Shown: positions 14,701-47,986 of the stretch, in pieces
Numbering within the stretch: position 1 is the stretch's first letter
Layout: each line of letters opens with the position of its first letter
Virus record (IMG/VR): IMGVR_UViG_3300046000_006960
Location: 1-53,760 of that record
DNA from: a virus
Length of the DNA: 53,760 bases
Strand: one strand, 5' to 3'
The notes under the pieces: generated by a model
What the model was told of the DNA's origin: nothing
Seen by the model: the letters and a program-made list of their open reading frames with translations, nothing else
The model's database searches: none
Translations under genes and position numbers: made by a program

Positions 14701-15387
14701 TTAATGTAAATATTGTATTGTTGTTTTATTTTTTCTATAACCTCTTAAATATTTTGATAACATTTTCATAGGTATATTTAAATCATTAGCACACTCTGTA
14801 ATTGAGTTCCAAATTTTATTTGTTTCAATACATATTACTTTTTTAGACATTTTATTTTCTCCTAATTTTTTTCCAACATTTGAAAACTTTTCATTTTTTC
14901 TAGCAATACTGAGTATTTCTTTATGTTCTTCTGATATTATTTTTCCTTTATTACTAAAAGATATTTTTAATTTAGTTTCATCTGAACAAGGTCTAGTTTT
15001 CATAAAATTACTTATTTGCAACCTTCGCTCAATTGAATTTCTTTTAACTCCTTTATTACCTAAACTTATTTTCTGTTTAGTTTCATTTGATAATTTCCCA
15101 GATTTATCACATGTTTCAGTAAGCTTACAATTTAAACCTTTTACACTTAAAACATCATAATAATCCTGCCAATATCTTTCTTTTTCATTAAGAACATTTA
15201 TATCACATTCTTCAACTATTTCAAATTTATGGCTGTCTATTCCATATTTTAAAAAAGATAATTTAAGTCTTTTATGTGATTTATTTTGATTTATATTTTT
15301 ATAAGAAGAAAATCTTCTATCAATATCAACACTTTGTCCAATATAAATTCTATTTTTTGGAGATATTATTTTATATATTCCTATCAT
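14701..15387 (-). CDS. Free-standing GIY-YIG homing endonuclease with NUMOD3 repeats (second of three)
   Basis: A 228-residue protein with a textbook GIY-YIG core: GIYKI at residues 3-7, YIGQS at 16-20 and R24/R25 nearby, with the catalytic Glu helix in NVLNEKERYWQDYYD. Two or three NUMOD3 motifs follow (SNETKQKISLGNKG, SDETKLKISFSNKG, SEEHKEIL). The C-terminus (TNKIWNSITECANDL, then KNKTTIQYLH) is a helix-turn-helix-like DNA-binding module shared with the other two. Its ATG overlaps the TGA of the upstream connector-type gene (ATGA), so it is translationally coupled to a late gene. Confidence 0.93.
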   Translation of the reverse strand: MIGIYKIISPKNRIYIGQSVDIDRRFSSYKNINQNKSHKRLKLSFLKYGIDSHKFEIVEECDINVLNEKERYWQDYYDVLSVKGLNCKLTETCDKSGKLSNETKQKISLGNKGVKRNSIERRLQISNFMKTRPCSDETKLKISFSNKGKIISEEHKEILSIARKNEKFSNVGKKLGENKMSKKVICIETNKIWNSITECANDLNIPMKMLSKYLRGYRKNKTTIQYLH

Positions 15388-18995: not shown

Positions 18996-19498
18996 TATTT
19001 AGGTAGTCTTTTTATAACAGATTTCATTACCTGTTTTAATTGTTCTGCATAATCAGGAGCGGTTGCGTAACCAGCCTTTGCGATTTCATCAAAAAATAAC
19101 GTAGGTGTATTTTTTACTTTTATAGCTTTTGCGTATCTAGGATTCTTTAAAAAGAAATTAACATGATCTGTAAATGCTAGCTCAGCAGAAGGATATTTTC
19201 TAAAATAATCTTTTACTGTATACTTAAATTTATTTCCTGCTTTTACAATTTTTAATATTACAGGAAACTTAACTTTATCAGTAGACAAATACTCCGTTGT
19301 TGTAATTAATTGCTCATTACCATTTACTCCATCAGTATCTTTAATACCAAAGAAGTTGTTTCCCACAGCCTTCTGACCCCAGCCACTCTCAAGCGCACCC
19401 TGAGTCAGAGGTATGAGGTAATGAAATCCTGTTTTAGCCTCTACTTTTTTAGCTTCTGGCAAATATGTTTTTACAAATTCTTCTGGTGTAATATTCAT
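18995..19498 (-). CDS. Glucosaminidase-type endolysin (GH73/FlgJ-like), 167 aa
   Basis: A single-domain peptidoglycan hydrolase. The N-terminal block (PEEFVKTYLPEAKKVEAKTG, then LIPLTQGALESGWG) carries the catalytic Glu in ALESGWG at about residue 38. NNFFGIK and the later YPSAELAFTDHVNFFL block are typical of the GH73 mannosyl-glycoprotein endo-beta-N-acetylglucosaminidase fold. The length of 167 residues equals one catalytic domain with no binding module and no signal peptide, so a holin is needed to release it. It overlaps the GIY-YIG stop (ATGA) and abuts the membrane protein gene. Confidence 0.88.
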   Translation of the reverse strand: MNITPEEFVKTYLPEAKKVEAKTGFHYLIPLTQGALESGWGQKAVGNNFFGIKDTDGVNGNEQLITTTEYLSTDKVKFPVILKIVKAGNKFKYTVKDYFRKYPSAELAFTDHVNFFLKNPRYAKAIKVKNTPTLFFDEIAKAGYATAPDYAEQLKQVMKSVIKRLPK

Positions 19499-20109
19499 AT
19501 TAAAAATTTTAAAGATGTTTTATTTTTATTTTGTCCTATTAACATTGCTGTTAAAGTTGTTCTTTTCATATTAAAAAATTCAGCAGCTATAGAGGAACTT
19601 TCAAATATTTTATTTGTACAAGTATCTATTACTTTTTTAGCAGATGGATTTTTACCTCCTTTAGTAGCTTTTGAAATATTAGATCTCCATTCATTAGAAA
19701 ATACCTTACCTTTCATCCAAATGTTTTTACCTTTAAAGGCTTTTGATCTTTTTTGTTTTTCATCATCAGACATTTTATGTCCAGAACAACCTTTCCCTCC
19801 TTTAGATATATTACATAATTTATTTCCAGATTTTATGTAATAATCAATCCAATAAATTTCTCTGTCTTCCCATTTTTCTAAACACTCTTCTATTATTTCC
19901 ATAATTGGTTTTTTACCATCTTTTAAAAAAGTTAATAACCAGTTTGATAAATGTTTACTTTTTGAGTTTAATTGTATTTTGTAATTAGAATGTTGTATAT
20001 ATCTTTTTTTTGGCTCAATAGATTTTCCAACATATTTAATTTCTAATGTATCTGGATGTTTTAATATATAAATATATGTAATTTTATTATCACATTCTTC
20101 TGGTGTCAT
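19495..20109 (-). CDS. Free-standing GIY-YIG homing endonuclease inside the lysis cassette (third of three)
   Basis: A 204-residue protein with the GIY-YIG core as YIYIL (residues 12-16) and YVGKS (26-30), then KKRYIQH and the catalytic Glu helix (CLEKWEDREIYWIDYY). NUMOD3-like segments (SDDEKQKRSKAFKGKN, SNEWRSNISKATKG) follow. The C-terminal module ends KNKTSLKFL as in the other two. It is wedged between the coiled-coil membrane protein and the endolysin, overlapping the endolysin start as ATGA, so it is coupled to lysis-gene translation. Confidence 0.92.
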   Translation of the reverse strand: MTPEECDNKITYIYILKHPDTLEIKYVGKSIEPKKRYIQHSNYKIQLNSKSKHLSNWLLTFLKDGKKPIMEIIEECLEKWEDREIYWIDYYIKSGNKLCNISKGGKGCSGHKMSDDEKQKRSKAFKGKNIWMKGKVFSNEWRSNISKATKGGKNPSAKKVIDTCTNKIFESSSIAAEFFNMKRTTLTAMLIGQNKNKTSLKFLI

Positions 20110-35452: not shown

Positions 35453-37687
35453 TTAGTAATGTTGCTTTCTTGCATTCCAGTTTCTTTCAAAGAATTTATC
35501 ATTAGAAACTTGATCTATTTTTTTGTGCTGATTAGCTATAGCCGCATTAGTTCTTTTTACTCTATCTTCTCTAAGCAGAAATAACATACCTCCTGCAGAT
35601 ACACGGTCAAAGTTGCCATCACTATTCCAAGCAACACATTCTTCTAAATAAGGTATGCTTCTTATGTGATGTAGCTTTAAACTATTATCTTCTTCATCTC
35701 CTTCGTTATATTGCGTAAGCATGTATTGTGCCTGAAGTAATCTTCCCCATTTATTTATCTCTCGATTAGCATGAGTTCCTTTAGCTTTGTTTCCATATAG
35801 ATTAGTAGCTTTTACCATATCCATATCTTTAAGTATCTGAGGCACATCGCATAAATAATGCAAACAATTTCTTGCATCAAAATAACTAAACAAACCTTTT
35901 AAGTTGCTTTCGTAGTTTGCTTCTGCATTATAAAATTTAAGAAGTCTTAATGACAGTTCATAAGCATCATTTGCTAATCTTGGTCTTCCTGTATATTCAG
36001 CAACAATTCTATCTGTAAAAGTATCCATTATTAAAATACTAAATAAAGATGTTCCTGTGTCTGCGTCAATAGGGTCAATACCAGCAATATATCTTCCTCT
36101 TTGTATTTCTCCATGACCATTTTTCTTTGGCATTTCAAATATTTCAAGACAACCTGTTCTATCTGTATCAGAACTATCATAAGCTCTTAACGGATATTTA
36201 TCAGATGTAGGTTTCCATTCAACTTCACCTGTAGGGCCGTAAACTAATTCTCCAATATAATGTTCTGCTAAAAATGATTCCTTTTTAGGACCTATGCTTT
36301 CTAGATAGTCTTTTATATCAGCTACAGGAAATACTGTTCCCTCAGTACGCATAATTGCCTCCTGTGGCGTTATAGGTTCCTCTGCTTTCTTTTGAGTAAT
36401 AGCTCTGGCATCAGATGAATTATATTTGACTTCATGTCTATCTAATAAAATTTCAATCAAAGCTTTTATTACATCAGGCTCACCATTTACTTCATCATAA
36501 CATTCATTACGATTTAAATATGCTCCCCAAAAGAATCCACATTCTAAATCGCCATTTGCTCCTTTATCAAAAACATTAGGGATTCCTAATATATTATAAG
36601 CTCCTGGTTTATAAAATAGTTTCTCAGACCCAGCAAATGAGGCTCCTTCAACTCCACCGGTTCCTCCTGCAAGCATAAATCCAAATGATACTCCACCATC
36701 CTCTACTGCTTTTCTGTTAACGTTCCATGCTTTTTCAAGATTAGGAAACAATCCATCTTCTTCGTAATGTATTAATGGCCCACGAATACCCCTTGCTTTA
36801 TCAGGGTTATCTTTTAATGATATCCCAAACACAGATGATAACAATCCTTTACGAGATCCATATTCATCTTTATATCCTAATTGAATATTCATTTCTTTTG
36901 TGGCATCAATAGTACGCATACGAGGCAAAGGAGTATGTTCTGCTATCCAGTCTAATGTATCTAATACTTTACCCCATATTCCTTTATCTCCAGACAAGAA
37001 TCCTTTATCAGATGCTAAATGGAAATTAGGATTACCAGATCCAGGAAATACATACATATTTCTTGGTGACTCTGATGCATTCTTGAAACTAAATCCAATA
37101 CCACGAGTTTTTAATACTTTACCATGTTTACCTAAACGTTTAGCTCTTGCTGTATAGTGAAAATAAAGATAATCACCTAACCATGGTTTAGCAAACTTTT
37201 TAACACGCTCTCCTTGACTACGCTCTCCTTTACCACTTTTAGCAATAGTTTGAACCAACCAAATAGGGCTGTAATTCCAGTAAAAATACAACTCGCCAGG
37301 AATCCATTCTCCATCAGACTCTCTAACTATACCATACTTCCATTTAATTAATTCTTGCTTCCAATACTCTGCGTATTCTGATTTAGGGTTACTATTTGGT
37401 TGCAGATTAGTATACCTTCCATTGTTCTCAAAGAATATAGCTGGTTGTCTAAAATAATCCATATCTTCAAGTATGTGAGGATTAGTGATGTCAACATCTA
37501 TCCTATTATCATCATACAGTTCTGACTTTGGCCTATCTTTAGCGTAACCACGAATACTCTCGTGAGCAATAAGATTTTTTACAAACTTAATAGTTGATGT
37601 ATATTCTACAAGGTTTTCATATACTTCTCTTGGCAACGATTGTCTTAATTCATCAGTTATTACAGTTTGGTATTTATTTAATTCCAT
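35453..37687 (-). CDS. terL: Terminase large subunit, 744 aa
   Basis: The DNA-packaging motor. The ATPase half shows a deviant Walker A around residues 192-203 (LKTRGIGFSFKNA) and a Walker B-type strand ending in acidic residues (GPLIHYEEDGLF, near 305), followed by a Gly-rich coupling segment (LAGGTGGVEGA). The nuclease half begins with YIAGIDPIDAD near 535 and has a second acidic strand at SYFDARN near 610. The 744-residue length is typical of crAss-like TerL. It overlaps the GroEL-like stop by 10 bp and is followed by the portal gene. Confidence 0.9.
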   Translation of the reverse strand: MELNKYQTVITDELRQSLPREVYENLVEYTSTIKFVKNLIAHESIRGYAKDRPKSELYDDNRIDVDITNPHILEDMDYFRQPAIFFENNGRYTNLQPNSNPKSEYAEYWKQELIKWKYGIVRESDGEWIPGELYFYWNYSPIWLVQTIAKSGKGERSQGERVKKFAKPWLGDYLYFHYTARAKRLGKHGKVLKTRGIGFSFKNASESPRNMYVFPGSGNPNFHLASDKGFLSGDKGIWGKVLDTLDWIAEHTPLPRMRTIDATKEMNIQLGYKDEYGSRKGLLSSVFGISLKDNPDKARGIRGPLIHYEEDGLFPNLEKAWNVNRKAVEDGGVSFGFMLAGGTGGVEGASFAGSEKLFYKPGAYNILGIPNVFDKGANGDLECGFFWGAYLNRNECYDEVNGEPDVIKALIEILLDRHEVKYNSSDARAITQKKAEEPITPQEAIMRTEGTVFPVADIKDYLESIGPKKESFLAEHYIGELVYGPTGEVEWKPTSDKYPLRAYDSSDTDRTGCLEIFEMPKKNGHGEIQRGRYIAGIDPIDADTGTSLFSILIMDTFTDRIVAEYTGRPRLANDAYELSLRLLKFYNAEANYESNLKGLFSYFDARNCLHYLCDVPQILKDMDMVKATNLYGNKAKGTHANREINKWGRLLQAQYMLTQYNEGDEEDNSLKLHHIRSIPYLEECVAWNSDGNFDRVSAGGMLFLLREDRVKRTNAAIANQHKKIDQVSNDKFFERNWNARKQHY

Positions 37688-39126
37688 TCGTTTTTATTTA
37701 AAACAATACAGTCTGTTGATAAAACTGTTTTAGCAATAGATACTGCGTTTTCTAATGCACACCTAGTAACCTTAAGTGGATCTATGATATTTTGTTCAAA
37801 CATATTTTTAATATGATTAGCATTAATTATGTTTTTAGGCGTATCTAAAGCTTTAAAAATAGCACATGCTTCAGGATACATAAACATATCCATAATCATA
37901 TCGTTAGCCCAATATAATGCTAATCCACCGCCTTCCACAATGCCTTCTTCTAATGCGCATGCTACAGCTTTAACCGCATCATCATATCTATCGTACTTTT
38001 CTTTAACCTCAATTTCAGATCCACCGCCTACTTTAATTAGGGCAACTTTAGCTGTTAGATTTTCAATACGTTTATTAATGATTTCTACATCATGCTTAGT
38101 TAGTTCTTTTGATTTAGATAACTCTGTAAGATTATCTATAATATCAGCAACATCAACATCGTCATGCTTAATTAGTAAAGAATTATTTTTAGTTATTTTA
38201 CAAGACTTTAGTTTTCCAAAAGTATTTGCTGTAGATTTGCCAATGGCAGTCATTATTTCTGCTCCAGTAAAGTCAGATATGTCTCTAAGGAAATCTTTTC
38301 TTACAGGGCCAAATCCTGGTGTTTTAATAACACATAATTGAATGTTACCACTCAATACATTAGATTCTAACTTACGTAATTCTTTTTCAACTATATCTTC
38401 TGTTATAATTAATAGCGGTTTCCCTGATTGTGCAAATGTATTTAGTACTCCTTGTAATGGTATTAAATCTGTTAATTTACCATCTATAATTAATACGGAT
38501 GGATCGATAAATAAACACTCTCCTTTTTTAAGGTTATTTACGAAATGCTTAGAAAAATAAGATACATCTAATTGCATTCCATCAATTAACTCTACAGAAT
38601 CTTTTTGATTAGTAGACTCCTCAACTTTAATTATATTAGAAAAATTGTAAGCTTGTTGAATAATATCGCCAATCTGTATATCGTTATTAGCAGATATACT
38701 TGCAACATATTTAATCTCTTCATGTTTTAATTCTTTTGAATTAAGTTTTAATTGTTCAATTACTTTTGGTATAATTTCATCAAACGCTTTATTAATTTCA
38801 TTTGAATCAAAATCTTTTAAGTTTTGTATAAAAGCATTAGCTAATACAATTGCAGTGGTAGTTCCATCTCCAGCTAAATCAACTTGCAATTCAGCAACTT
38901 CTTTTACTAATTGTGCGCCTATGTTTTCTATTGCATTTTTAAAACTTACCTCTCTAGCTACAGATACGCCGTCCTTTGTTATTTTATATTTATTAAACTC
39001 AGTGCTATCTGGTATAATTACTGTTTTACCATTAGGCCCCATTGTTTTTGACACTGCGTCACATAACTTTTGGATTCCATTAAACAATAAGTTTCTTGCT
39101 TCTTTTTCAAAGTATATTTCTTCCAT
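37678..39126 (-). CDS. groEL: Phage GroEL-like chaperonin, 482 aa
   Basis: A group I chaperonin subunit. ATP-site motifs are intact: ITKDGVSVA with D52 and LAGDGTTTA with D87, both at the same residue numbers as in E. coli GroEL, plus VGGGSEIEVKEK and YDDAVKA, where the catalytic Asp398 equivalent falls. Apical-domain words (LIIDGKLTDL, VIKTPGFGPVRKDFL, DFTGAE) and the late NAVSIAKTVLSTDCIV block are present. It is about 65 residues shorter than GroEL (545): several loops are trimmed and the Gly-Met tail is absent. It lies immediately before TerL (10-bp overlap), four genes after a GroES-like gene. It probably helps fold phage virion proteins. Confidence 0.92.
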   Translation of the reverse strand: MEEIYFEKEARNLLFNGIQKLCDAVSKTMGPNGKTVIIPDSTEFNKYKITKDGVSVAREVSFKNAIENIGAQLVKEVAELQVDLAGDGTTTAIVLANAFIQNLKDFDSNEINKAFDEIIPKVIEQLKLNSKELKHEEIKYVASISANNDIQIGDIIQQAYNFSNIIKVEESTNQKDSVELIDGMQLDVSYFSKHFVNNLKKGECLFIDPSVLIIDGKLTDLIPLQGVLNTFAQSGKPLLIITEDIVEKELRKLESNVLSGNIQLCVIKTPGFGPVRKDFLRDISDFTGAEIMTAIGKSTANTFGKLKSCKITKNNSLLIKHDDVDVADIIDNLTELSKSKELTKHDVEIINKRIENLTAKVALIKVGGGSEIEVKEKYDRYDDAVKAVACALEEGIVEGGGLALYWANDMIMDMFMYPEACAIFKALDTPKNIINANHIKNMFEQNIIDPLKVTRCALENAVSIAKTVLSTDCIVLNKNEWN

Positions 39127-46819: not shown

Positions 46820-47435
46820 GAAAGACCAAGGTTGGTAAATAGTAGTTCGCGGGAGAGCACCTACTTTAAAAATAGCGATCCCATCATGGGGGTGCCTGGT
46901 TTTGACAGGTTACTAATAATTAATACAATCAGCCAGAGAGATAACTGTAAACTAAGGTGAATTAAATAAACGACAAAAATACAACAGCTCAAACAAGAGC
47001 AAACATGCAAGTGGTTCATAACATCTTAAATGGTGGAACTTCAGTATCAACAGAAATGTTGATTGCTGCGTAATATTTTTAGATTATTTTAAGGATTTCC
47101 TTGTTAGATTAAACAAGGTGGTGGAATCACTGATTAATCAGTTGACCTCGTGTATCTAAACACATAAAACTATAGTGAAGCTGTATAAATTGTATTAAGG
47201 AATGTAATTTGGACGGGAGTTTGAGAACGGACTCACTATGTAGGGATATGTAGTTAAAAATTGGAAGAATTGCTGGAACACTAAAGCCATTTAGGTATGT
47301 ACAAAATTACAGTACACTAAGTAGTCAATCAGCAGCCGAGCTTACTGGCGGAAGTAAGAAGGTTCAACGACTAGGGAATCTAAGGATAGCCCACAGCCTC
47401 CAACACCTAGAACAGGTGATGATATAGTCTAATCA

Positions 47436-47855
47436 CTAGTGAAAACTAGTGCAGAAAAATAGCCTTTCATAAGCTAATTTTCTATCGTATTCTATTATAG
47501 AATATTTACCATTCTTTTTAGTTACAATATTATGATACTTTAATATAGTATTGATTCTATGTAATTTTTTAGAATGATGAGAATTTAATAATTCACAAAG
47601 CTTGTAACATACTTGATTGCTACTTGCAGATAAAGAATAGCCAATAGAATGGCTTGTCTTTTTAGCTGGTTTTGTACTGATTGAAAGTTTTAAATTATAA
47701 TTTAACAATAAATATTGTTGAATTTCTAATAAAAGATTTTTATCAGTATTTGTAAAATCAATTTTAATACAACGAAATTTGTCATCTTTAGATTGATAAG
47801 ACATTGTAATTGAGCCATCTGCATCAAAAAAACCTGAAATGTAATTTAAGTCCAT
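47436..47855 (-). CDS. LAGLIDADG homing endonuclease inside the tmRNA intron, 139 aa
   Basis: A single-motif LAGLIDADG protein. The motif is LNYISGFFDADGSITM at residues 3-18, with the catalytic Asp in the DADGS part. The later LSASSNQVCYKLCELLNSH and YHNIVTKKNGKYSII segments fit the family. At 139 residues with one motif it must act as a homodimer. It is read opposite to the tmRNA, from its own promoter, and its stop codon falls inside the intron's P9 hairpin. It presumably cuts intron-less ssrA T-loop sequences. Confidence 0.9.
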   Translation of the reverse strand: MDLNYISGFFDADGSITMSYQSKDDKFRCIKIDFTNTDKNLLLEIQQYLLLNYNLKLSISTKPAKKTSHSIGYSLSASSNQVCYKLCELLNSHHSKKLHRINTILKYHNIVTKKNGKYSIIEYDRKLAYERLFFCTSFH

Positions 47856-47889
47856 AATAATAGGATAAGGGTTATATATACGTTAGGTG

Positions 47890-47920
47890 CAAATATACAA
47901 AATTTAATTACAAAAAACAA
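47890..47920 (-). promoter_or_regulatory. Bacteroidota-type promoter of the intron endonuclease
   Basis: On the minus strand: TTG, 20 bp, TATATTTG, 35 nt ahead of the endonuclease ATG and wholly inside the intron. It makes the endonuclease independent of tmRNA transcription. Confidence 0.75.
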
Positions 47921-47986
47921 GTAAATGTTAAATTATTTTATAATAATTTTTATAATGAATTATAAATGCGATTCTCCCCACCTCCA

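Follow-up and report, generated by a model that had tools for sequence, protein, structure and literature searches.

A group I intron with an antisense LAGLIDADG endonuclease gene splits the tmRNA gene of a crAss-like phage in the T-loop

Positions 46888-47986 of the window (the whole 53,760-nt stretch of DNA analysed, IMG/VR record IMGVR_UViG_3300046000_006960) encode the tmRNA of a crAss-like phage, presumably one that infects Bacteroidota, and a group I intron interrupts this gene within the T-loop. An intact gene for a LAGLIDADG homing endonuclease lies inside the intron on the opposite strand. Our reading, to which we give a probability of about 0.9, is that a mobile intron invaded the phage tmRNA gene; self-splicing is predicted to restore the T-loop, and the endonuclease is predicted to spread the intron.

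The 5' exon (46888..47221, plus strand) begins with the acceptor 5' strand, GGGGGTG, at 46888. It continues through the D-like and pseudoknot regions, the tag frame and the T-stem 5' strand, and terminates as GGAC-GGGAG-TT, the last two bases being the first two of the T-loop. The 3' exon (47969..47986, plus strand) supplies the rest of the T-loop (CGATT), the other T-stem strand (CTCCC), the acceptor 3' strand (CACCTCC) and A73. CCA is absent from the gene, and ACTA directly follows the acceptor strand. Joining the exons gave a T-stem with all five pairs (GGGAG/CTCCC), a T-loop TTCGATT that fits TTCRANY, and an acceptor stem with seven of seven pairs, including one G-U. The sequence-only reading had proposed a tmRNA gene split in its T-loop, with just these elements restored by excision of 47222-47968; the gene was reconstituted as claimed, and the coordinates proved exact to the base. 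The combination of T-stem, T-loop, acceptor stem and terminal G at the joint was found in none of 20,000 Markov-simulated 2-kb stretches, which rules out a chance T-arm joint.

ARAGORN called no tmRNA on the raw window. With the intron removed in silico, it called one with the tag DKNTTAQTRANMQVVHNILNGGTSVSTEMLIAA followed by a stop. The frame (46972..47073, plus strand; positions 85-186 of the spliced tmRNA) has 33 codons plus the stop, and its product ends in TEMLIAA, a small hydrophobic end of the AA type. The Rfam tmRNA model RF00023 matched only the 5' part, at 46895-47218 (21.9 bits, E 3.3e-6), which falls short of the model's gathering score, 47, since the 3' part of the tmRNA is displaced. 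In the covariance-model check suggested earlier, the tmRNA 5' part and the intron core were placed; a match to the 5' part alone, with a score under gathering, is what a split gene should give.

The intron (47222..47968, plus strand) is 747 nt long and ends in G, its boundaries being set by reconstitution of the T-arm. The insertion point lies between T-loop bases 2 and 3. This is subsite 3 of the four loop subsites 2, 3, 7 and 8, in the numbering of the Figure 2 legend of PMC11915505 as interpreted here. The group I model RF00028 matched 47184-47451 with 80.2 bits (E 1.2e-20; gathering score 50). P1 (47217..47234, plus strand) is formed by exon GAGUU (47217-47221) and guide GACUC (47230-47234), and has the expected U.G pair at the 5' splice site, as previously claimed. 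The catalytic core, P2-P9, spans 47222..47464 (plus strand); compensatory changes were present at 34 of its 48 predicted pairs among 21 relatives. The conserved P3-P8 and P7 core, the splice-site U.G and the terminal G all place the element among the group I introns. Weak snoRNA-like Rfam matches inside the intron, with scores far under gathering, were put down to chance.

The same features were seen in the relatives. The 5' splice-site U.G was present in 26 of 26 parsed introns, the parse having demanded U or C at that site plus a terminal G. P1 spanned five bases in 25 of them, and the guide tracked the exon from intron to intron (GAGTT with GACTC, GGGTT with GACCC). None of the 26 unspliced genes was called by ARAGORN; after splicing in silico 19 were called, and the other seven stayed uncalled.

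The endonuclease gene (47855-47436, minus strand) follows P9 and encodes 139 aa with matches to PF14528 (E 2e-9) and PF00961. All 26 family members matched Pfam LAGLIDADG models, and the motif GFFDADG was invariant in the 26 sequences. The AlphaFold2 model (pLDDT 94) found its best PDB fold matches in the homing endonucleases I-Vdi141I and I-OnuI and in I-CreI variants. Motif and fold thus agree on a LAGLIDADG enzyme. Both this antisense gene and its wide family of relatives had been overlooked in the sequence-only reading.

A pattern match placed a Bacteroidota-type -7 promoter-like element, TATATTTG, at 47897-47890 (minus strand), 42 nt before the endonuclease start. The same octamer precedes the antisense copies L003, L034 and L043, and the near variants TATATTTA and TAGATTTA precede other antisense copies as well as the sense copies L049 and L054. 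This short motif, recurring before copies in both orientations, suggests that the endonuclease gene carries its own promoter along.

The inverted repeat of the T-stem and loop would suit a LAGLIDADG enzyme with a single motif, which presumably acts as a dimer. Enzymes of this kind leave four-base overhangs. The spacing of four bases between subsites 3 and 7 would correspond to the length of this overhang.

Relatives were collected by an endonuclease-only search of IMG/VR and GTDB genomes. All 30 homologues with E <= 1e-12, the window included, were each located within a tmRNA gene or directly next to one. In eighteen the endonuclease gene is intronic and antisense, at subsite 3 (window, L003, L004, L034-L042), subsite 7 (L007, L053, L062, L063) or subsite 8 (L008, L043). 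In seven it is intronic and sense (L044, L046, L049, L054, L064, L065 and L050, the last on a contig with only the 3' exon of the tmRNA). Another three directly follow a tmRNA whose intron has no endonuclease gene: L005 (subsite 3), L006 (subsite 2) and L045, whose intron has a non-G end and was assigned to subsite 3 by eye. The remaining two, L047 and L048, lie just downstream of an intronless tmRNA. The family thus occurs with all four subsites, in both orientations, and free-standing. This complete linkage to tmRNA genes lends indirect support to the T-arm as the target of the endonuclease. The free, intron-adjacent and in-intron arrangements are the stages expected under collaborative homing, for which the steps leading to composite mobile introns have been described (PMC3984707).

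Beyond this set, a weaker homologue in Phaeodactylibacter (L066), a short gene adjoining an intronless chromosomal tmRNA, is probably a remnant. A remote homologue (L052) has a tmRNA-like signature several hundred bases off. The distant LAGLIDADG matches L051, L055-L061 and L067 were rejected as not of the same family, and no tmRNA was found near them.

Several details of the relatives are recorded here. In L047 (~838-811) and L048 (~1386-1355, both minus strand) the T-loop is an odd eight-base AGTCGGAG where TTCRANY would be usual, which may represent an allele resistant to cutting. In L045, the motif of the tmRNA 3' end, CACCTCCACC, occurs again after the downstream endonuclease (~3955-3942, minus strand), like a displaced target end. 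The L004 tmRNA (~4970-4740, minus strand) has about 200 extra nt past the tag stop, giving a 5' exon of about 530 nt. L005, L006, L045 and L047, where the endonuclease is free-standing just downstream, belong to a different phage group, whose tags share the end GL(L/V/I)R/S..EV(A/T)VA.

At about 23-41 aa the phage tags are long; they share a conserved core, Q..ANM, and in most cases finish with an AA-type end (window 46972-47073, L003, L007, L023, L034-L041, L075-L078). This pattern is common to Crassvirales, Callevirus and Fipvunavirus; tags of the bacterial relatives are of the ordinary length, 9 aa. In the phage tag frames the third codon positions are the most variable, which suggests selection on the tag peptide in these phages. 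In two crAss-like relatives, L086 (1465-1821) and L085 (~1528-2080), on the records of L032 and L014, the T-arm half precedes the acceptor 5' half. These appear to be circularly permuted, two-piece tmRNA genes, with tags ANIFAINNAPVRLAA and ANIFAINNEPLRMVA (L086, L085); ARAGORN called only L086.

The intron-core tree bore on the origin of the subsites. L044 (subsite 3), L043 (subsite 8) and L062/L063 (subsite 7) formed one clade with support 98/99, in a tree from a 151-column alignment that omitted the P1-P2 columns, had many weak forks and carries unsettled bootstrap values. Within this clade P3-P8 are almost alike and P1 is rewritten, and the subsites are mixed in the endonuclease tree too. 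A supported clade covering subsites 3, 7 and 8 indicates that introns switched subsite at least there, by rewriting of the guide. Founding events in other lineages would be compatible with such a change in one clade. We consider it an even proposition that a LAGLIDADG lineage dedicated to the tmRNA T-arm moves between phages and Bacteroidota hosts and has formed partnerships with group I introns repeatedly, the four known subsites arising at least partly by switching and free, collaborating and composite forms coexisting. That the subsites stem only from separate invasions, each joined independently by the endonuclease family, seems to us doubtful. It would accord with the multiple founding events proposed for bacterial tmRNA introns in the main text of PMC11915505, with the many weak forks of the short core tree, and with the separability of intron and endonuclease in the free-standing cases (L005, L006, L045, L047, L048). 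The union of three subsites in one clade, with nearly identical P3-P8 and a rewritten P1, argues against it.

The window record is an uncultured metagenomic fragment of 53.8 kb. Its terminase, portal and major head protein matches are crAss-like, the head protein being 63% identical to that of Crassvirales phage phi14:2, so the earlier assignment to a crAss-like phage stood. Most of the longer intron-bearing viral records also have crAss-like terminase or head-protein matches. A GroEL-like chaperonin gene (37678-39126) directly adjoins the window terminase gene. Genes of the group I intron endonuclease type (TIGR01453) lie among the structural genes at 14701-15387 and 19495-20109, the latter match being under the curated cut-off.

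Among close phages the intron is patchily distributed. It is present in the window and L003 but absent from L012, L013 and L015, all of which belong to a single TerL clade with full support. A sample of phage tmRNAs gathered by pseudoknot pattern, independently of the intron, contained at least 96 intact T-arms and at least four with an intron, all of these with the endonuclease motif; at least 18 were unresolved or cut off. A tmRNA intron of this type was present in two of 395 Bacteroidia genomes, one being the search-centre genome. Further intron-model matches in Bacteroidia genomes, L116-L121, could not be read as introns of a tmRNA T-loop. A search of 50,697 annotated phages gave no copy of the endonuclease, and none of the longest group I intron matches inspected there proved to be a tmRNA intron; about 100 more records had shorter matches. 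The matches in J2-1, Shewanella 1/4, Vibrio 1.187.O and S-SRM01 were located at RNR, terminase or psbA; the matches in HM1, HNL01 and pYD6-A had surroundings without informative annotation. Relatives of the endonuclease at the same tmRNA spot in phages and some bacteria make what was known as a rarity look like a shared mobile element.

The sequences themselves show the gene anatomy, the class of the intron, conserved pairing in its RNA, an intact reading frame, linkage of the whole family to tmRNA, a patchy distribution and a change of subsite. For the steps of splicing, cleavage and homing, and for what the tmRNA does during infection, we propose the following course. A mobile group I intron would have invaded the phage tmRNA gene at T-loop subsite 3. 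The precursor would self-splice, by guanosine attack after U47221 and ligation to C47969, and so restore the T-loop. End processing and CCA addition would then yield a tmRNA of roughly 350 nt whose tag has 33 aa. The LAGLIDADG gene, which seems to have a promoter of its own on the opposite strand, would provide an enzyme that cuts intronless T-arms in the DNA of the host or of another phage infecting the same cell, and repair would then insert a copy of the intron. Intron and endonuclease are separable and would have converged as partners on a single conserved target. With the intron removed by self-splicing, the phage would still make tmRNA. That the phage depends on self-splicing for its rescue RNA is a sound inference.

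It is improbable that the phage tmRNA is a decaying passenger, poorly spliced or dispensable, with the split gene tolerated as junk. The host has its own tmRNA, intron-bearing phage tmRNAs are the minority in the sample above, and ARAGORN left some spliced relatives uncalled. Decay is contradicted, however, by covariation throughout the intron core and between guide and exon, by the intact catalytic motif and reading frame, and by the restored 7-bp acceptor and 5-bp T-stem. Still less likely is a control device, in which splicing is timed or conditional and the unspliced precursor or the 5' part acts in its own right, for instance by delaying the phage tmRNA or occupying SmpB. A mycobacteriophage molecule with a tmRNA tRNA-like domain can inhibit host tmRNA (PMC4131195; main text of PMC11915505), and folding could be disturbed when the endonuclease gene is transcribed antisense; but the sequence has no pointer to a switch, and since most close phages are intronless, control by the intron can hardly be needed. 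A chimeric assembly, or a piece of host DNA wrongly assigned to a phage, might be suspected in a metagenomic contig whose intron and enzyme also occur in bacterial chromosomes (L062-L065, in tmRNAs with ordinary short tags), but is hardly credible: the split layout recurs in 23 further viral contigs, which come from different samples, so that we reject the chimera, and the phage tags are unlike bacterial tags and share contigs with phage hallmark genes.

Invasion by a mobile, self-splicing intron would turn tmRNA introns from a bacterial curiosity into an element common to phages and their hosts. Some phages may have to splice an RNA before their own means of ribosome rescue becomes usable. 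Phage tmRNAs of this kind escape standard tools because the T-loop is split. The relatives form a natural series in which the pairing of free-standing endonucleases with introns can be tested, and the origin of the subsites, by separate invasions or by switching, becomes testable.

Bacterial tmRNA T-loop introns, those at subsite 3 in Bacteroidia included, are already known, some with LAGLIDADG genes. The main text of PMC11915505 describes 883 sequences at four subsites (2, 3, 7, 8), with subsite 3 confined to the class Bacteroidia, and homing endonuclease genes, recognised by LAGLIDADG homology, in 36 of the 883, after P9 or in P7.1. Those introns and that of the window are alike in the T-loop site, the -1 U paired with G and the terminal G. 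They come from bacterial genomes, whereas ours is on a phage contig; that text has none longer than 700 bp, against 747 here, and gives no orientation for the endonuclease genes, which in the window is antisense. It counts 79 phage tmRNAs and mentions no phage intron, and it favours multiple founding events, whereas one supported intron clade here covers three subsites. The clostridial intron mentioned in the sequence-only reading agrees with this literature, which is mostly on Bacillota and subsite 7, but the window belongs to subsite 3, in that text a Bacteroidia-only site. No report of a phage tmRNA intron was found in the literature covered, mostly openly readable papers and PMC11915505 apart from its supplement.

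The T4-type, DNA polymerase and RNR phage introns (PMC3984707) likewise combine a phage gene, a peripheral endonuclease and collaborative homing, but they interrupt protein genes and mostly have GIY-YIG, HNH or similar enzymes, in contrast to the non-coding RNA gene and opposite-strand LAGLIDADG gene of the window. The myxomycete rDNA intron Dsq.L2066 (PMC9548176) also has an opposite-strand endonuclease gene in the P9 region within an RNA gene, and a related intron has a sense copy; its enzyme, however, is of the His-Cys type and its setting is eukaryotic nuclear rDNA. Phage-encoded ssrA is also present in Crassvirales phi14:2, where the T-arm is uninterrupted, and in methylophage Melnitz, whose two-piece tmRNA is described with no mention of an intron (PMC9004378). 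The window enzyme resembles the single-motif I-CreI type in its one LAGLIDADG motif, size and fold, with a low sequence identity of 11-18% to the best PDB fold matches. As far as could be checked, the phage setting and the antisense LAGLIDADG gene are new, and so are a single endonuclease family over four subsites, in both orientations and free-standing, and a change of subsite within an intron lineage.
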